The notes beneath the pieces were generated by a model, which was given only the letters and a program-made list of their open reading frames with translations, was not told the DNA's origin and searched no databases. Source: Betaproteobacteria bacterium SCGC AG-212-J23 (GTDB lineage Bacteria; Pseudomonadota; Gammaproteobacteria; Burkholderiales; SG8-39). Taken from it: a stretch of 64,000 bases of DNA. Positions within the stretch are counted from its first letter, which is position 1, and every line of letters starts with the position of its first letter. Location: positions 21,099 through 85,098 of the forward strand of contig LSTF01000001.1 of assembly GCA_001644455.1 (NCBI GenBank), given 5' to 3'. The position numbers and the translations under genes were made by a program. Positions 6,988 to 52,978 of this stretch are shown here, piece by piece.

Positions 6988-8453
6988 TAGTGGAGGCCCA
7001 GACCGGTCTTGAAAGTCATTGCTATCCGATAGGCGAGCAGCGGGGGGACTGCATTGCCGATCTGGCGGAACGCTGGATTCATGGTCCCGGCAAAAGCGAA
7101 GCCATCAGGGAAGGACTGCAACCTAGCCGCCTCACGAACGGAGATGGTGCGGGCTTGGCTGCTGTCGTAGTGGATATGGGAATAACTGTCCTTGCCCAAG
7201 TGAGCCATGAGTGTTCGAGCAGGCTTGTTCCGCTCCATCTTTCGCCACTTGTTCGGAAACTTCCCCGGATCATAGGGCGGGACGATCGAACGCTTGACCC
7301 GCTCATACTCGGCGCTTCCCTCGCGTATACGCTTTCCGTTTCTTCGCATCGCCTTCAACTTTGCTTCAAAAAGGTCCAATGCGTGGCGGTGAGCAGCCGG
7401 ATACTCGTCACCCGCATTCATCTTGCTGAAGATTTGGTAGTCGCGTGGGAGCGATCTGATCACGTGGTCTAACACACCGCCATTCGCTTCAAATCCCGGC
7501 CACTCTCGCATCTGGCGAGCGAAATCGGACAGTGGCTTCTTCTTCGGGTATGGAACTAGCTGAGTAAAGCGGCGAGCGCCCCTCTTGAGACCGCCATTCA
7601 AGTGCTCTGTAATGGAGGGCAAGTCAGAGATTGCGTCATACGCGGTTACCGCCGGAAGCAACGAGTCCTTCTCGGGCTCAGGAGGCGGAGTGTAGAACTG
7701 GTCCTGGTCGAACAAATCGTTGCGGAGCGTCTGAAGAGCTACTTGCCGCGAGCTCACATAGCCCCGCGGTAGTTCGATGTAGTTGAGTGGATTGGGAAAT
7801 GCTGGTTCGGCTTTGAGTGATTCGTGATAGGCGATGAGGAACATGCGCTCCCGCATTTCTGGAACGCCATAGAAGACTGAATTTAGTAGCGTGTACCGAC
7901 ACTCATATCCAAGATCCGCAAGCGTCTCGCATATCTCCTCAGCGATGTTGTGCCCTCCGTAGTTGAGTACATCAGGCACGTTTTCCATGAGAAGTGCCAA
8001 AGGCTGGAGTTCACGCACATAGTGCAGATAGCGTAGGTAGAGGTTGCTTCGCGGGTCCAACTTGAACGCCCGCGGATGCTCCAACACTTCACGAAGCTTT
8101 GCGCGGCCAACCCTCGCAAACGCTTGGCAAGGAGGGCCGCCAACAATTACGTCAACGACGCGTTCAGGTGGTTCCTGATGGCCGTGTTCCCTAAGGAAGT
8201 CCGCCGGCTCAGTCGATGTTATGTCTCGAGCTCTGGCGTGGATGTCCCTGATGTGCTTTGGCGCTTCCCGACTGAAATTCAGAGCGTGAGACTGCGCGGC
8301 ATGTGGATCAAACTCCACTGCGCCGACTAGCTCAAAGCCGGCCCGATGAAATCCAAGCGAAATGCCGCCGCAACCGGCGAAAAGGTCTACGAGTCTCGGT
8401 CTGCCGCCAGCTTCTAGTCGAGCGATCTTTTGTCTGATCGTCTTGTTCAGCAC
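6987..8453 (-). CDS. DNA (cytosine-5-)-methyltransferase (Dcm/M.HpaII-like)
   Basis: LVDLFAGCGGISLGFHRAGFE, VDVIVGGPPCQAFARVGR, LLMENVPDVLN, ISVREAARLQSFPDGF and QIGNAVPPLLA motifs. Confidence 0.95.
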   Translation of the reverse strand: MLNKTIRQKIARLEAGGRPRLVDLFAGCGGISLGFHRAGFELVGAVEFDPHAAQSHALNFSREAPKHIRDIHARARDITSTEPADFLREHGHQEPPERVVDVIVGGPPCQAFARVGRAKLREVLEHPRAFKLDPRSNLYLRYLHYVRELQPLALLMENVPDVLNYGGHNIAEEICETLADLGYECRYTLLNSVFYGVPEMRERMFLIAYHESLKAEPAFPNPLNYIELPRGYVSSRQVALQTLRNDLFDQDQFYTPPPEPEKDSLLPAVTAYDAISDLPSITEHLNGGLKRGARRFTQLVPYPKKKPLSDFARQMREWPGFEANGGVLDHVIRSLPRDYQIFSKMNAGDEYPAAHRHALDLFEAKLKAMRRNGKRIREGSAEYERVKRSIVPPYDPGKFPNKWRKMERNKPARTLMAHLGKDSYSHIHYDSSQARTISVREAARLQSFPDGFAFAGTMNPAFRQIGNAVPPLLAYRIAMTFKTGLGLH

Positions 8454-45326: not shown

Positions 45327-46301
45327 ATGGATCGCAAGATCGGCCTTGAGGAACATTTCGCCATCCCCGACACGCTGAACGACTCGAAGGGGTTCCTCGG
45401 CGACCATGTCTGGCCGGAGCTGGAGAAGCGCCTCCTCGACATGCAGGAGTACCGGCTGTCGCAGATGGACAAGCACGGCATGCAGATGATGATCCTGTCG
45501 CTGAATGCACCCGCGATCCAGGCGATCCCGGACGTGAAAAAGGCCACAGAAACGGCGCGAAAAGCGAACGACTTTCTCGCCGCGGAGGTGAAGAAGCGCC
45601 CGGATCGCTTCCAGGCCTTCGCCGCGCTCGCCATGCAGGACCCCGACGCCGCGACCCGCGAGCTGGTGCGTTGCGTGAAGGACCTGGGCTTCCGCGGCGC
45701 CCTCGTGAACGGATTCTCTTCGATCGAAAAGGAATCCATGGTCTATCTCGACGACCGCCGTTACCAGGGATTCTGGGCCGAGTGCGACAAGCTCGGCGTT
45801 CCCTTCTATCTCCACCCGCGCAACCCGCTGCCGAGCGCTTCGCAGATCTACGAAGGCCATCCCTGGCTGCTCGGCCCGACCTGGGCGTTCGGCCAGGAGA
45901 CCGCGGTGCATGCGCTGCGCCTGATGGCCTCGGGACTCTTCGACCGCCACCCGAAGCTGCAGATCGTCCTCGGCCACCTCGGCGAAGGCCTGCCCTACAG
46001 CATCTGGCGGGTCGACAACCGCAATGCCTGGACCAAGGCGCCGCCGCGCTACCCGGCGAAGAAGAAGCTCGGCGATTACTTCCGCGACAACTTCCACCTC
46101 ACCGTGTCGGGCAACTTCCGCACCCAGACGCTGATCGACGCGATCCTCGAGGTCGGCTCGGACCGCATCCTGTTTTCCACCGACTGGCCGTTCGAGAACG
46201 TCGACCATGCCGCCGACTGGTTCGACGCCTGCCCGATCAGCGAGGCCGACCGGCTGAAGATCGGCCGCACCAACGCCGAGCGGCTGTTCAAGCTACTCTA
46301 G
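45327..46301 (+). CDS. Amidohydrolase-family gamma-resorcylate (2,6-dihydroxybenzoate) decarboxylase-like protein
   Basis: IGLEEHFAIPDTLNDSKGF..LSLNAPAIQAIPD..FYLHPRNPLPSASQIYEGHPWLLGPTWAFGQETAVHALRLMASGLFD...VSGNFRTQTLIDAILEVGSDRILFSTDWPFENVDHAADWF. Confidence 0.88.
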   Translation: MDRKIGLEEHFAIPDTLNDSKGFLGDHVWPELEKRLLDMQEYRLSQMDKHGMQMMILSLNAPAIQAIPDVKKATETARKANDFLAAEVKKRPDRFQAFAALAMQDPDAATRELVRCVKDLGFRGALVNGFSSIEKESMVYLDDRRYQGFWAECDKLGVPFYLHPRNPLPSASQIYEGHPWLLGPTWAFGQETAVHALRLMASGLFDRHPKLQIVLGHLGEGLPYSIWRVDNRNAWTKAPPRYPAKKKLGDYFRDNFHLTVSGNFRTQTLIDAILEVGSDRILFSTDWPFENVDHAADWFDACPISEADRLKIGRTNAERLFKLL

Positions 46302-47516
46302 GAATTTCGCGGCAGGAACCTCGCGGCTGAACTGCGGGCCGCTGATGAACTGCTGCGGGTCGTAAGTCCAGAACTGCGACACCTCGGGGTAGGTGGCGAT
46401 GGTGGTGTTCACCAGCTGGCCATCCTTCTTCTCCACCTTGCGGATGTAGATGTTGAGGATCGGCTTGCCGTGCTCGCCAAGCCGGATCGGGCCCATCGGC
46501 CCGTGCTCGAGCTTCACTTCATGCAGCGCACGGATGAAGGCCGGCTTGTCCTCGAACTTTCCCTTGACGCGCTTCAGCGCTTCCTCGAGCCACAGGCCTG
46601 CGGTATAGGTGCCGGCGGTGTAGAACCCAGGCGTCGCCTTGTATTCGCGCTGGATCGACTCGACGAAGCGCTTGTTATCGGCGGTGTTGCGATCGACTGT
46701 GTACCAGCTTGCCGAGTAGACGCCGAGCGCCTCGTCGCCCATGTTCTTGAGGATCCCCTCGTCGACGAAGGTCGGGTTGCCGAAGAGCGGCAGCTTCAGC
46801 CCGTACTCCTTGTAGGCGCGCAGGAAGCGCAGCGGGTTCGAGCCGGCGAAGCCGGCGTAGACGCCGTCGACGTTGGTCTTCAGCTGGCCGATGAACGAGC
46901 CGTAGTCCGGCACGTTGAGCGGCGGCCAGAGCTTCTGGATCACGCGCCCGCCGGCGTCCTCGAACACCTTGTGGAAGCCGGCCGCGCCCTCGTGGCCGTA
47001 GGTGAAGTCGTCGGCGATCATCGCCACCCGCTTCATGCCGAGCTTCTTCGCCGCGTAGTCGCCCAGCGCGTACATCGGCTGCGCCGCGGTGCCGTAGACG
47101 TGGATCACGTATTCGCTCTTCTTCTGCTGCGCGAGGTCGTTCTGCGCCGCCGAGGTCGGCGTGATGAGCGGCGTCTTCGAGGTCAGCATGTACTCGTCGA
47201 TCGCCAGGGCCTCGAAGGTGGCGAGCGGGCCGATCACCACCGCCACCCGGTCGCGCTCGACCAGCTCCTGGGTCTTGGTCTTGGCCTGCGCGGGCTGGCC
47301 GGCGGTGTCGGCGAAGATGATCTCGACCTTGCGGCCGGCGAGGGTGTTGTTGCGCTCCTTGAGCAGCAGGTTGATGCCTTCTTCCATCTGCCGGCCGCCG
47401 GCGGCGAGCGGACCTGTCCGCACCGTCAGGAAGCCGATGCGCAGGGGCTCCTGCGCCTGGGTCTGTTGCACCGCGGAGAAGAACAAGGCAAGCGCAGCGA
47501 AAGCGAAGCGAACCAT
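46293..47516 (-). CDS. ABC transporter substrate-binding protein (branched-chain amino acid type)
   Basis: EPLRIGFLTVRTGPLAAGGRQMEEGINLLLKERNNTLAGRKVEIIFADTAGQPAQAKTKTQELVERDRV; signal peptide. Confidence 0.9.
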   Translation of the reverse strand: MVRFAFAALALFFSAVQQTQAQEPLRIGFLTVRTGPLAAGGRQMEEGINLLLKERNNTLAGRKVEIIFADTAGQPAQAKTKTQELVERDRVAVVIGPLATFEALAIDEYMLTSKTPLITPTSAAQNDLAQQKKSEYVIHVYGTAAQPMYALGDYAAKKLGMKRVAMIADDFTYGHEGAAGFHKVFEDAGGRVIQKLWPPLNVPDYGSFIGQLKTNVDGVYAGFAGSNPLRFLRAYKEYGLKLPLFGNPTFVDEGILKNMGDEALGVYSASWYTVDRNTADNKRFVESIQREYKATPGFYTAGTYTAGLWLEEALKRVKGKFEDKPAFIRALHEVKLEHGPMGPIRLGEHGKPILNIYIRKVEKKDGQLVNTTIATYPEVSQFWTYDPQQFISGPQFSREVPAAKFLE

Positions 47517-47568: not shown

Positions 47569-48264
47569 ATGAGATTCCATTGGCTCGCAGCTCTCGTTGG
47601 CCTGCATGCGTCCGGAGCGCTCGCCCAGGCTCCCGCAACCCCGCCGCCGCCGGTTCCCGCCGACGTGAGTCCGCTCTACGTCGTCACGTACGTCGAGCTC
47701 AAGCCCACGGCGCGTAGCGACGGCACCGCGGTCCTGAAGTCCTGGCGCGATGCGCAGCGCAAGGCCGAAGGCAACCTGCGCGCCGAAATCGTCCACCACA
47801 CGACCCGGCCCGGGCAGTTCGTCGTCATCGCCGCCTGGCAGAACAAGGCGGCGTTCGACGCTCACGCGGCCGCAGGGCAGTCGTTCCGCGACAAGCTCCA
47901 GGAACTGCGCAATGCGCCCGCCGATGACCGGTTCCACAACGCGCTCTCGGTCGGCAAGCTCGAGGCGGCACGCGGTGCGCTCGTGGTCGTCACGCACGTC
48001 GACGTGATCCCGCCCCGCCGCGAGGACGCGGTCGTGGCGCTCAAGGCGCTGGGCGAGGCGAACCGCGCTGCGGACGGAAACGTGCGCTACGAGGTGGTGC
48101 AGCAGACCAACCGGCCGAACCACTTCACCGTGGTCGAGACCTGGCGCTCGCGCCAGGCGTACGACGCGAACAGCATGTCCGCGCATCAGCGCGAGTTCCG
48201 CGACAAGCTGGCGCAGATGACCGGGGCACTGTACGACGAGCGCCTGTACGAAAGCATCGACTAG
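47569..48264 (+). CDS. Exported tandem antibiotic-biosynthesis-monooxygenase (ABM)-like domain protein
   Basis: Signal peptide; two related modules: YVVTYVELKPTARSDG...FVVIAAWQNKAAFDAH and LVVVTHVDVIPPRREDA...FTVVETWRSRQAYDAN. Confidence 0.75.
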   Translation: MRFHWLAALVGLHASGALAQAPATPPPPVPADVSPLYVVTYVELKPTARSDGTAVLKSWRDAQRKAEGNLRAEIVHHTTRPGQFVVIAAWQNKAAFDAHAAAGQSFRDKLQELRNAPADDRFHNALSVGKLEAARGALVVVTHVDVIPPRREDAVVALKALGEANRAADGNVRYEVVQQTNRPNHFTVVETWRSRQAYDANSMSAHQREFRDKLAQMTGALYDERLYESID

Positions 48265-48276
48265 CCGAGGCAAGCC

Positions 48277-50133
48277 ATGGACAACGAAGCCCGCCGTTCC
48301 TTCCTGAAGGGCGCGGCGGCGATCGGCAGCACGCTCGCCGCCAATAGCGTCGTCGCCCAGTCCTCCGGCGCTGAAAAAGAGAAGAAGAGCAAGGCGGCCG
48401 GCGTGGCCAAGACCATCGCCCGGCCGGGCTCGGACTTCATGGTCGACGTGATCCGCTCGCTCGGCATCGACTACATCGCTTCCAACCCGGCGTCGAGCTT
48501 CCGCTCGCTGCACGAGTCGATCGTCAACTACGGCGGCAACCGCAAGCCGGAGTTCATCACCTGCATGCACGAGGAATCGTCGGTGGCGATCGCCCACGGC
48601 TACTACAAGGCCGCGGGCAAGCCGATGGCGATGCTCGCCCACGGCTCGGTCGGCATCCAGCACGCGGCGATGGCGGTCTATAACGCCTGGTGCGATCGCG
48701 TGCCGGTGGTGCTGATGGGCGGCAATTTCATGGACGCGGCGCAGCGCCGGCCGGGCGTGGAATGGGCGCATTGCTCGCAGAACCCGGCCGCGCTCTTGCG
48801 CGACTACATCAAGTGGGACGACCAGCCGGCGTCGCTGCAGCATTTCGCCGAGTCGACGGTGCGCGCCTACAAGATGGCGATGACCCCGCCGATGGAGCCG
48901 GTGATGATCGTCGCCGACGGCATGCTGCAGGAGGAGCCGATCGAGGACGAGAAGGGCCTGTCGATCCCGAAGCTCGCCCTCTCCGCGCCGCCGCAGGGCG
49001 AGTCGGGGGCCGTGCGCGAGGCGGCAAAAATACTTTCATCTCATGAAAATGTCGTGATCATCTGCGAGCGGGTGGCGCGCAACCAGGAGGGCGTGAAGCT
49101 GATGGTCGAGCTCGCCGAGGCGCTGAACGCGCCGGTGGTGGATCTCCTCGGCCGCATGAACTTCCCCACCACGCACTACCTCTGCCGCTCGAGCGACGGG
49201 CGGGCGCTGGTGCGCGACGCCGACGCGATCCTGTTCCTCGAGGTCGCCGATCCCTGGGGCCAGCTGAACAGCATCAGCGACCCGCACCACGAATACCGGC
49301 GCGTCGCCAAGGCGGACGTGAAGACCGTCCACGTCACGCTCGCCGACCAGCTGATGAAGTCGAACTACCAGGACATGCAGCGCTTCTGCCCGGTCGACAT
49401 CTCGATCAGCGCCGACTGCCAGGCGACCCTTCCGTCTTTGATCGAAGCCATCCGGAAAATTGGCAACCCGAAATTCGGAAAGACCGAAGCGCTGCGCAAG
49501 GAATACCTGCAGATGAAGGCGCGCACGCGCGAGGCGGCGGCGCTCGCCTGGGACGCGAGCCCGGTCTCCACCGCGCGCCTGCACGCCGAGCTGTGGAACG
49601 TGCTGAAGAACGAGAACTGGTGCCTCGCCGAGTCGCGCAACGGCTCATGGGCCGCGCGCCTCTGGCCGGCGACGCAGCACCACAACTTCCTCGGCCAGTC
49701 GGGCGGCGCGGGCGTCGGCTACATCGCGCCGGCGGCGGTCGGCGCGGCGCTCGCCAACAAGGACAAGGGCATCGTCACCGCGGTGGTGCAGCCCGACGGC
49801 GACCTGATGTACGCCCCCGGCGTGCTCTGGACCGCGGCGCACCACCGGATTCCGCTCCTCTCGGTGATGCACAACAACCGCGCCTACCACCAGGAAGTGA
49901 TGCACCTGCAGAAGATGGCCGGCCTGCACAACCGGCGCATGGACACGGCGCGCATCGGCACCGCCATCGAGGACCCGAACATCGACTACGCCAAGCTCGC
50001 CCAGGCGCAGGGCGTCTGGGCCGAGGGACCGATCACCGATCCGGCGAAGATCGGCCCGGCGCTGCAGCGCGCGCTCGCGGTGGTGAAGAAAGGCGAGCCG
50101 GCGCTGGTCGACGTGGTGACACAGGGGCGCTGA
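48277..50133 (+). CDS. Thiamine diphosphate-dependent enzyme (acetolactate synthase/benzoylformate decarboxylase family) with Tat signal
   Basis: MDNEARRSFLKGAAAIGSTLAANSVVAQ Tat signal; catalytic-Glu segment CMHEESSVAIAHGYYKAAGKP; ThDP segment QPDGDLMYAPGVLWTAAHHRIPLLSVMHNN. Confidence 0.9.
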   Translation: MDNEARRSFLKGAAAIGSTLAANSVVAQSSGAEKEKKSKAAGVAKTIARPGSDFMVDVIRSLGIDYIASNPASSFRSLHESIVNYGGNRKPEFITCMHEESSVAIAHGYYKAAGKPMAMLAHGSVGIQHAAMAVYNAWCDRVPVVLMGGNFMDAAQRRPGVEWAHCSQNPAALLRDYIKWDDQPASLQHFAESTVRAYKMAMTPPMEPVMIVADGMLQEEPIEDEKGLSIPKLALSAPPQGESGAVREAAKILSSHENVVIICERVARNQEGVKLMVELAEALNAPVVDLLGRMNFPTTHYLCRSSDGRALVRDADAILFLEVADPWGQLNSISDPHHEYRRVAKADVKTVHVTLADQLMKSNYQDMQRFCPVDISISADCQATLPSLIEAIRKIGNPKFGKTEALRKEYLQMKARTREAAALAWDASPVSTARLHAELWNVLKNENWCLAESRNGSWAARLWPATQHHNFLGQSGGAGVGYIAPAAVGAALANKDKGIVTAVVQPDGDLMYAPGVLWTAAHHRIPLLSVMHNNRAYHQEVMHLQKMAGLHNRRMDTARIGTAIEDPNIDYAKLAQAQGVWAEGPITDPAKIGPALQRALAVVKKGEPALVDVVTQGR

Positions 50134-50134
50134 C

Positions 50135-50464
50135 ATGAAATGGGTTTTCGTCCTGTTCGTCGGCACTGCTTTTTCGCAAGACGGCGACGTGAAGCGCGGC
50201 CAGGCCGCATTCCTGAAATATCAGTGCTACACCTGCCATGGAACGGTCGGGCAGGGCGCTGAGCGCGGCGCGGGGCCGAAGCTCGCGCCCAACCCTTTTC
50301 CGTGGGCGGGATTCCAGTTCCAGGTGCGCACGCCGCGGCAGGACATGCCGGCGTACCGCCGGGAACATTTGCCCGACCAGGACCTTGCAGATATTTACGC
50401 TTACGTGCGCTCCATCAAGCCGTCGCCGTCGGCGAGCGCGATTCCCCTGTTGAAAATCGACTGA
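50135..50464 (+). CDS. Small c-type cytochrome, exported
   Basis: Signal-like N-terminus; CYTCHG haem-binding motif; single possible distal Met region RQDMPAYRREHLPDQDLADIYAYVRSI. Confidence 0.92.
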   Translation: MKWVFVLFVGTAFSQDGDVKRGQAAFLKYQCYTCHGTVGQGAERGAGPKLAPNPFPWAGFQFQVRTPRQDMPAYRREHLPDQDLADIYAYVRSIKPSPSASAIPLLKID

Positions 50465-50864: not shown

Positions 50865-51447
50865 GGTCCCGCATCCGCTTCGCGCCGGCGTAGTAGAGCA
50901 GCATCGCCGCGATCTGCACCACGTGGTACAGGTCGTTGTGGTTGAAGTATTCGTGCAGCGCCACCCGCCCGGCCTGAATGCCCGCCGCAATCAGCGACAC
51001 CGCCACGCCGCCGAGGATCCAGCGCGTCGCCGGGTTGTCGAGCCTGAAGAGATGTAGCGCCGCGACCGCGAGCATGGCCGACGCCGTGTCGGCGACGACG
51101 AAGATGAACGCGTCGTGGCCGAGCATCCACGCTTCGTAGGACACGAGCTTCAGCGCCGCGACGACGAGCAGCACGCGGCGCACGCTGCCGGAGGTCGTGG
51201 CGTACGCGCTGCCGGCGAGCATGCCGAAGCTCGCGACGCCGACCGACAGCACCGTCGGCTTCCAGAGCCACTCCCAGCGAAAGCCGTGATACGTGCCACC
51301 GAGCAATGCGCCGAGCGCGAGGGCGACGAACGCCAGCGTCCAGAAGCGGCAAGAAACCGTGGGATTTTTCCTGAGTCGAAAAGCCAGGCAGGCGGTTACG
51401 CCGGCCAGCGCGTAATCCGTGAGCAGTGTGACGGGCTCAGCTACCAA
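50839..51447 (-). CDS. Multi-spanning membrane protein of unknown function
   Basis: Several hydrophobic segments: FWTLAFVALALGALLGGTYHG, VLSVGVASFGMLAGSAYA, etc. Confidence 0.75.
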   Translation of the reverse strand: MVAEPVTLLTDYALAGVTACLAFRLRKNPTVSCRFWTLAFVALALGALLGGTYHGFRWEWLWKPTVLSVGVASFGMLAGSAYATTSGSVRRVLLVVAALKLVSYEAWMLGHDAFIFVVADTASAMLAVAALHLFRLDNPATRWILGGVAVSLIAAGIQAGRVALHEYFNHNDLYHVVQIAAMLLYYAGAKRMRDLTAPATTP

Positions 51448-52942
51448 AATACATTCGGCGGTAGTGGCGGTACCAGTCGCTCTGGAAGAGCTCTTCCTTG
51501 TCGTACTTGCGCTTGAGCTGCAGGAATTCGCGGAACTGCGGATAGCAGACGTCGATCTGCTGGCGCAGCGCGTGGCGGTGGTAGGTGAGGTAGTAGCTGC
51601 CGCCGTGCTTGATGCCGATGTTGATCAGGCGGCGGAAGGCGTCGCCGGCGCGGATCGAGCCGCGCGTCGAATGCTCGACGTGCAAATTGAAGATCACGCA
51701 GGCGTAGGGTTTCCTCGCCCACGGCAGGAAGCTCTCGAAGTCCTGCTCGATCAGGCGGATGGTGCCGTAGATGATCTCGACCTGGTCGCGCTTCACGTAC
51801 TCGCGCACGTCGGCCATGAACGGCTCGAGCGCGTCGCGGTCGCAGTAGATCTCGGCGATCACCTCGCTCGCGCGATTGGTCGCGGCGTAGCGCTTCTCGA
51901 GCTCGCGGTGGTAGTTGTCGGGGTAGACGCTCATCTGCGCCTCGTCGGACCAGTACACCTGGCCGTTGGTCGACTGGTAGAACGAGGCGTAGCGCTTGAA
52001 GGCGCCGGTCTTGTCGGTGTGCGCGAGGTAGAGCAGGTCCACCCAGTCGCGCTCGCTCATCGCTTTCTTCACCGGTGTGAGCGGCGTGTCGTCGGCGACC
52101 GGCCGGTAGCAGGAGAACACGCCCTTGCGCAGGAAGTCCTCGGAGCGGTCGTCGATCGCGTACTGGAAGTCGCCGAACGTGAAGCCGTCGCGCACGCGCT
52201 CGCCGAAGGCGCTGATCAGGCCGGCGATGTCGCGCACCTCGACCACGCGCTCCAGCTTGCGCCGCGGCACGAGGCGCAGCGTCACCGAGTAGACGAAGCC
52301 GAACAGCCCGTAGCCGCCGATCGCCAGCTTGAACAGCTCCGGGTTCTGCGCGCGGCTGCAGGTGAGCAGTTGCCCCTGCGCGTTGACCAGCTTGAAGGAC
52401 TCGATGTCGCCGATGAAGGGCGGCAGGGTCAGGCCGCGGCCGTGGATGTTGGACGAGAGCGAGCCGCCGATGGTGACGCGGTCGACGCCGGTCTGCTTCT
52501 GCGAGAAGGTCCAGTGCTGCGGCAGGCCGCGCTGCACCGTGCTGAGGTGCTCGAGCAGTTGCGGCCACATCATCCCGGACTCGACCTCGATCAGGCCGCG
52601 CTCGGTGTCGAAGGCGAGGACCTTGGAGAGCTTGCGCGTGTCGATCATCACGCCGTCCTGCGCGAACGGCTGCCCGCCCATCGAGTGGCGGCCGCCGGCG
52701 ATGCAGACGCCGCGCTCCTCCTCGCGCGCCTGCGCGAAGGCCTTGGCGACGTCGTCGAGGTTTTCCGGGCGGGCGATGGCGAAGACGCGCGCCGAGCTGA
52801 GCTGGCCGTGGACGTCGTTGACCAGGATCGTGCCCGGCGCCGCCTTGGTCGCCGCCTTGGGCGCCTGGGCGAGCTGCGCGAAGGAAGCGTTGGGCGCGGC
52901 GGCGGCGAGCCCCGCCGCCTTCAGGAACGTGCGTCTTCTCAG
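51437..52942 (-). CDS. FAD-binding (PCMH/FAD_binding_4) oxidoreductase with Tat signal; proposed CTG start
   Basis: From CTG 52942: LRRRTFLKAAGLAAAAPNASFAQ...GTILVNDVHGQLSSARVFAIARPENLDDVAKAFAQAREEERGVCIAGGRHSMGGQPFAQDG. In-frame TAG lies just upstream; first ATG is 52681, inside the FAD-binding domain. Confidence 0.8.
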   Translation of the reverse strand: MRRRTFLKAAGLAAAAPNASFAQLAQAPKAATKAAPGTILVNDVHGQLSSARVFAIARPENLDDVAKAFAQAREEERGVCIAGGRHSMGGQPFAQDGVMIDTRKLSKVLAFDTERGLIEVESGMMWPQLLEHLSTVQRGLPQHWTFSQKQTGVDRVTIGGSLSSNIHGRGLTLPPFIGDIESFKLVNAQGQLLTCSRAQNPELFKLAIGGYGLFGFVYSVTLRLVPRRKLERVVEVRDIAGLISAFGERVRDGFTFGDFQYAIDDRSEDFLRKGVFSCYRPVADDTPLTPVKKAMSERDWVDLLYLAHTDKTGAFKRYASFYQSTNGQVYWSDEAQMSVYPDNYHRELEKRYAATNRASEVIAEIYCDRDALEPFMADVREYVKRDQVEIIYGTIRLIEQDFESFLPWARKPYACVIFNLHVEHSTRGSIRAGDAFRRLINIGIKHGGSYYLTYHRHALRQQIDVCYPQFREFLQLKRKYDKEELFQSDWYRHYRRMYFGS

Positions 52943-52978
52943 ATTCTTCTCCTCGGACGGCTAAAGTAACATGCCGCC

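Follow-up and report, generated by a model that had tools for sequence, protein, structure and literature searches.

A predicted Tat-exported thiamine diphosphate enzyme encoded beside a small cytochrome c: a candidate two-component system for 2-oxo-acid oxidation outside the cytoplasm

Thiamine diphosphate (ThDP) enzymes are textbook cytosolic catalysts. Characterised benzoylformate decarboxylases (BFDs) are cytosolic and non-redox and lack an export signal and a cytochrome. PoxB is cytosolic, membrane-associated, FAD-carrying and quinone-linked, and the flavoprotein p-cresol methylhydroxylase has a small cytochrome c subunit. In several ThDP enzymes, ferricyanide is known to oxidise the ThDP-bound intermediate. 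Among the open-access papers searched, none described a ThDP enzyme that is exported and paired with a cytochrome, although subscription journals may hold such a description. In the present study, we analysed a 64,000-nucleotide stretch of DNA from Betaproteobacteria bacterium SCGC AG-212-J23 (the window), in which a ThDP enzyme with a Tat signal is encoded next to a one-heme cytochrome c. The source assembly is fragmented, with 2.06 Mb spread over 123 contigs at a completeness of about 60%. If true, the existence of a conserved exported ThDP family that has a heme partner of its own would extend the respiratory metabolism of soil and aquatic bacteria to the periplasmic oxidation of 2-oxo acids.

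Gene layout and the cofactor site of the ThDP enzyme

Positions 47569–50464 hold three co-directional plus-strand genes with export signals, separated by gaps of 12 bp and 1 bp. The first (47569–48264) encodes a 231-aa protein with a Sec-type leader and two stretches of the Pfam ABM domain (84.9 bits). The second (48277–50133), which we regard as the first core gene, encodes a 618-aa ThDP enzyme with the domains TPP_enzyme_N, _M and _C. The third (50135–50464), the second core gene, encodes a 109-aa one-heme class I cytochrome c with a short Sec leader, a CYTCHG motif and matches to Cytochrome_CBB3 and Cytochrom_C. All of these Pfam matches exceeded their cut-offs. Direct reading and Pfam agreed with an earlier note on this DNA regarding the three reading frames, their gaps and their motifs, including the Sec signal and two ABM modules of protein 1 and the CYTCHG of protein 3. 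Outside the core lie a divergent gene for a periplasmic ABC-type substrate-binding protein (Peripla_BP_6; 46293–47516, minus strand) and a gene for an Amidohydro_2 hydrolase/decarboxylase-like protein (45327–46301, plus strand).

The ThDP protein starts with MDNEARRSFLKGAAAIGSTLAANSVVAQ and contains CMHEESSVAIAHGYY and PDGD...HNN. On direct reading, its Tat signal region, RRSFLKGAAAIGSTLAANSVVAQS (48292–48363, plus strand), comprises a twin arginine, a hydrophobic stretch and a VVA-Q cleavage-like site. Both arginines of the RR pair, E99, H122, D507, N533 and N534 were invariant in 36 aligned homologues; therefore, the Tat motif and the ThDP ligands, which the earlier note had read from a single sequence, are not chance occurrences. 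Because the ThDP ligands were invariant, a pseudoenzyme was ruled out. The protein belongs to the ThDP superfamily by its three Pfam domains, catalytic Glu and D...NN metal/diphosphate motif. Its twin arginine, accompanied by a hydrophobic stretch, is conserved in orthologues and a TatC gene is present in the genome, so that Tat-dependent export is predicted.

The AlphaFold2 model of the enzyme had a mean pLDDT of 83.6, and all of its Foldseek matches fell within the ThDP decarboxylase/lyase/synthase superfamily. The best PDB matches by sequence and by profile were BFDs, which are flavin-free, and H122 aligned to the BFD active-site His. This kinship appeared to be in line with the 2-oxo-acid chemistry proposed below. 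When the protein was compared by alignment with PoxB, Gcl and IlvI of E. coli, the D...NN ligands were found in place, as was the catalytic Glu, for which Gcl has Val. The central-domain G-x-G motif of the FAD site (GSGC in PoxB, GGGV in Gcl, GGGA in IlvI) read CERV in the window protein and was absent in the aligned members of both Tat-bearing clades described here; by this motif, the window protein is not assigned to the FAD-dependent ThDP enzymes (PoxB/AHAS/Gcl). The earlier note had not pointed out the missing motif, which suggests that the enzyme works without FAD.

These observations bear on the possibility that the enzyme is a pyruvate-oxidase-like redox enzyme with a bound flavin or quinone, the cytochrome being a secondary acceptor. 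PoxB is an established ThDP enzyme with respiratory electron output, and the FAD-carrying glyoxylate carboligase ranked among the better profile matches after the BFDs and also appeared among the Foldseek matches. However, with the G-x-G motif absent and flavin-free BFDs as the best profile matches, we consider this reading quite improbable.

Conservation and distribution of the ThDP–cytochrome pair

Initially, genome contigs were searched using only the ThDP protein as query, which yielded 37 loci. In this set, every homologue of at least 50% identity with an intact gene and downstream DNA had a Tat signal and an adjacent one-heme cytochrome of about 110–130 aa. Among those aligned, the Tat-bearing homologues were 51–76% identical to the window protein; their hosts were recorded as Beta-, Alpha- and Gammaproteobacteria, Rokubacteria and Acidobacteria. 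The set was then widened by genome searches, duplicate genes were removed, and both flanks were scanned in six frames with a cytochrome profile built from set members, the ThDP loci having been collected without reference to the cytochrome. Of 65 distinct Tat members, 62 had a gene for a family cytochrome c next to the ThDP gene, in 58 cases downstream in the same direction and in 4 convergent; none of the 44 non-Tat homologues had one. Tat status was assigned by reading for L049 and for copy 2 of L117, both missed by the automatic filter, and the L072 cytochrome was present in another frame, where the gene caller had missed it. L122, a candidate exception with a non-Tat gene beside a cytochrome, was explained by the second-clade Tat-ThDP gene that comes next. 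Fisher's exact test of Tat signal against cytochrome adjacency gave p = 2e-27, uncorrected for relatedness; since relatives are not independent, this value is descriptive only. The co-occurrence with the cytochrome that the earlier note had set as a check was borne out in this set.

Two results were counted against the mechanism proposed below. The three Tat members without an adjacent cytochrome all came from a single Bryobacterales genome (G518), which carries at least five Tat-ThDP paralogues, and one of the three lies where its contig ends. Fusion proteins of ThDP enzyme and cytochrome were looked for among the homologues and not found. At L117 (G524:C203) the pair occurs in two tandem copies.

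Across 36 loci, pairwise distances of the ThDP enzyme and the cytochrome were correlated (r = 0.71; none of 5000 permutations was as high), as expected if both proteins were inherited together. The other flanking genes differed between most lineages, and in most loci the cytochrome was the sole conserved neighbour, which indicated that the pair was retained against a changing background. Since dozens of genomes carry the pair, as do finished plasmids from cultured isolates, a local accident or assembly artefact was ruled out. Among the clustered loci, the ABM gene occurred only in the window and in one close relative, L002/L021 (apparently one contig present in two collections); in L021 an extra Sec-exported cyclase-family gene sits between the ABM and ThDP genes. 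Because of this restriction the ABM protein was rejected as a core partner and is regarded as a local accessory. Thus, of the three-gene order proposed earlier, the ThDP–cytochrome pair held and the ABM gene did not, and the suggestion that ABM proteins bind substrate or product was not supported. The conserved core is a pair rather than a trio. With both the Tat signal and the gene pair conserved, the idea that the ThDP enzyme is exported and has a cytochrome c of its own is strongly supported.

The distribution was patchy. In the window's family, 21 of 98 genomes matched at E ≤ 1e-150, including some non-Tat relatives at 530–580 bits; across its phylum, 1 of 399 sampled genomes matched at this threshold. 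At E ≤ 1e-200, the phylum that includes the Bryobacterales genome gave matches in 6 of 199 genomes, and the phylum to which the L022-bearing genome belongs gave them in 1 of 198. The Tat members carried E80, E322, N363, Q539 and E540, positions at which the non-Tat relatives have D, D, W, N and D, respectively. These consistent differences suggest that the chemistry of the Tat members may be altered.

In the cytochrome family alignment, C31, C34 and H35 (CxxCH), R65 and M71 were invariant, and the model of the window cytochrome contained helices at residues 19–28, 32–35, 57–65 and 81–93. The CxxCH, distal Met and helical fold identify a class I cytochrome c, with modest structural matches (best E 4e-4). 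PDB profile matches included cytochrome c subunits of bc1 complexes, cbb3 oxidase subunits and the cytochrome subunits of fructose dehydrogenase and p-cresol methylhydroxylase (the latter at E 5e-8); SorB was absent from the NCBIfam matches of the window cytochrome. On plasmid p3 of Caballeronia zhejiangensis (L182), the two genes, whose products are WP_244808613.1 and WP_244808614.1, are 8 bp apart, and the cytochrome (7752–8372) is a two-heme protein, apparently because a further cytochrome domain has been fused to it. In Novosphingobium sp. KACC 22771, the ThDP enzyme, the family cytochrome and a second cytochrome are encoded in a row. A second heme domain or a second cytochrome gene is what would be expected of an electron chain, and these two cultured hosts make the pair testable.

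A FAD_binding_4 oxidase with a Tat motif is encoded near the pair (51437–52960, minus strand) and is not part of the core. The gene was called as 51437–52681, with the first ATG at 52681; homology and the Tat motif, the latter absent from the earlier note, reach upstream of this ATG, and the frame is readable from about 52942 with LRRRTFLKAAGLAAAAPNASFAQ. The product was 66% identical to a 501-aa protein of L021 with the N-terminus MVSRRKFLGF, on which the FAD_binding_4 domain was found. No ATG, GTG or TTG start was present between the stop and the RR motif; therefore, the gene probably has an unusual start or contains a sequence error. The protein is possibly an upstream 2-hydroxy-acid or alcohol oxidase.

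As in p-cresol methylhydroxylase, the cytochrome might belong to this FAD oxidase and lie beside the ThDP gene by chance. The Tat-motif oxidase occurs in both the window and L021, and the cytochrome family matches the p-cresol methylhydroxylase subunit, but among other cytochromes. The oxidase was clustered near the pair in these two loci only, while the cytochrome tracked the ThDP gene in 62 of 65 Tat members, which makes a chance placement extremely improbable.

A second Tat-ThDP clade

A second, distant clade of Tat-ThDP proteins, about 23–25% identical to the window protein, was found in the window's genome and several relatives (L155 on G000:C61, L156, L159–L162, L165 and L122). Here a different, SorB-like cytochrome c lies upstream, within 0.9 kb in six of seven loci. 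In L155 its gene is immediately upstream and overlaps the ThDP gene by 4 bp; in L156 it is also upstream, but separated from the ThDP gene by about 2 kb in which a further gene was called; and in L158, a more distant, 35%-related locus, it is downstream. These cytochromes gave no match with the profile of the first family. SorB was their best NCBIfam model at 27.4 bits (54.6 for L158), below its cut-off of 93. In L156 and L159, 2Fe-2S genes come next, and L156 also has a Tat-motif molybdenum oxidase-like gene.

In a maximum-likelihood tree of 71 ThDP cores, from which the signal region had been removed, the Tat members formed two separate clades with support of 100 and 99; the Tat signal changed two times and cytochrome adjacency, shifting along with it, three times. 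A sign test on independent pairs gave p 0.5 from two events only and has no power at that number, so that a parallel second origin of the Tat-ThDP and cytochrome arrangement is suggestive rather than statistically proven.

The two clades also bear on whether the cytochrome might be a regulatory or assembly partner instead of an electron acceptor. In the first family the layout is typical of class I, CxxCH and Met being conserved, and the recruitment of two cytochrome families in parallel to ThDP enzymes with export signals would fit electron transfer better; a regulatory or assembly role thus seems very unlikely.

Proposed mechanism and comparison with known systems

Taken together, the gene pair and its motifs point to a two-component extracytoplasmic oxidoreductase formed by genes 2 and 3. 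The ThDP enzyme would fold and take up ThDP and Mg in the cytoplasm and then be exported in the folded state by Tat. Outside, it would decarboxylate a 2-oxo acid, at best guess an aromatic or otherwise bulky one, by BFD-like chemistry. The ThDP-bound carbanion/enamine would be oxidised, and the electrons would pass to the neighbouring cytochrome c, with which the enzyme would make physical contact, and on to the respiratory chain. The first of these transfers is probably direct, because no flavin site is apparent. The products would be a carboxylic acid and CO2. It is very probable that both proteins work together outside the cytoplasm. For the whole mechanism, a Tat-exported, probably flavin-free ThDP 2-oxo-acid dehydrogenase passing electrons to its own cytochrome c, we estimate a probability of about 0.55.

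Clues to the substrate are hints only. They comprise the BFD kinship, UbiD and Mo-hydroxylase genes adjoining the pair in one betaproteobacterial subgroup, the location of one non-Tat relative within a cluster of phthalate genes, and the Tat-motif FAD_binding_4 oxidase of the window and L021, which could supply the 2-oxo acid from a 2-hydroxy acid.

Some of the same evidence could be read differently. A periplasmic non-redox ThDP decarboxylase or lyase might release an aldehyde, or make or break C–C bonds, with the cytochrome serving another periplasmic dehydrogenase, such as a molybdenum aldehyde oxidase, by which the product would be oxidised. The closest characterised relatives are indeed BFD and carboligases/lyases; to our knowledge, characterised BFDs are not oxidoreductases, which we counted against the redox mechanism. 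Mo-hydroxylase/aldehyde-oxidase genes lie near L026, L041 and L054 in the first clade and L156 and L159 in the second. However, in most loci no second dehydrogenase is conserved beside the cytochrome, and L055, a non-Tat relative near Mo-hydroxylase genes, has no cytochrome. We therefore regard a non-redox enzyme as rather unlikely and favour the ThDP dehydrogenase with its own cytochrome c.

More tentatively, at somewhat less than even odds, the two clades may represent a class of ThDP dehydrogenases that are exported by Tat, work without flavin and pass electrons from the ThDP intermediate directly to a dedicated cytochrome c, having arisen from cytosolic ThDP enzymes on at least two occasions. 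The occurrence of the two-gene unit in several phyla suggests an undescribed route by which 2-oxo acids would give up electrons beyond the inner membrane. Such a route would raise the question of how heme could receive electrons from a ThDP intermediate with neither flavin nor iron-sulphur relays in between, and such a compact enzyme–cytochrome pair might be of use in bioelectrocatalysis.

Among known systems, BFD (MdlC; PDB 4q9d, 1bfd) shares with the window enzyme the three-domain ThDP fold, the aligned catalytic Glu and active-site His and the apparent lack of FAD, but identity to 4q9d in the structural alignment is about 19%, and the window protein falls outside the NCBIfam family PRK07092 (benzoylformate decarboxylase) at 154.7 bits against a cut-off of 493. 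The best NCBIfam model for both Tat clades was PRK08327, "thiamine pyrophosphate-requiring protein", at 237.6 bits against a cut-off of 456. PoxB has the ThDP fold and couples 2-oxo-acid oxidation to respiratory electron output, as proposed here; the window protein lacks its G-x-G motif and is about 19% identical to it. SorAB sulfite dehydrogenase and p-cresol methylhydroxylase are built in the way proposed here, each pairing a catalytic subunit outside the cytoplasm with a small cytochrome c of its own, but their catalytic cofactor is molybdenum or FAD rather than ThDP, and the second-clade cytochromes score below the SorB cut-off.
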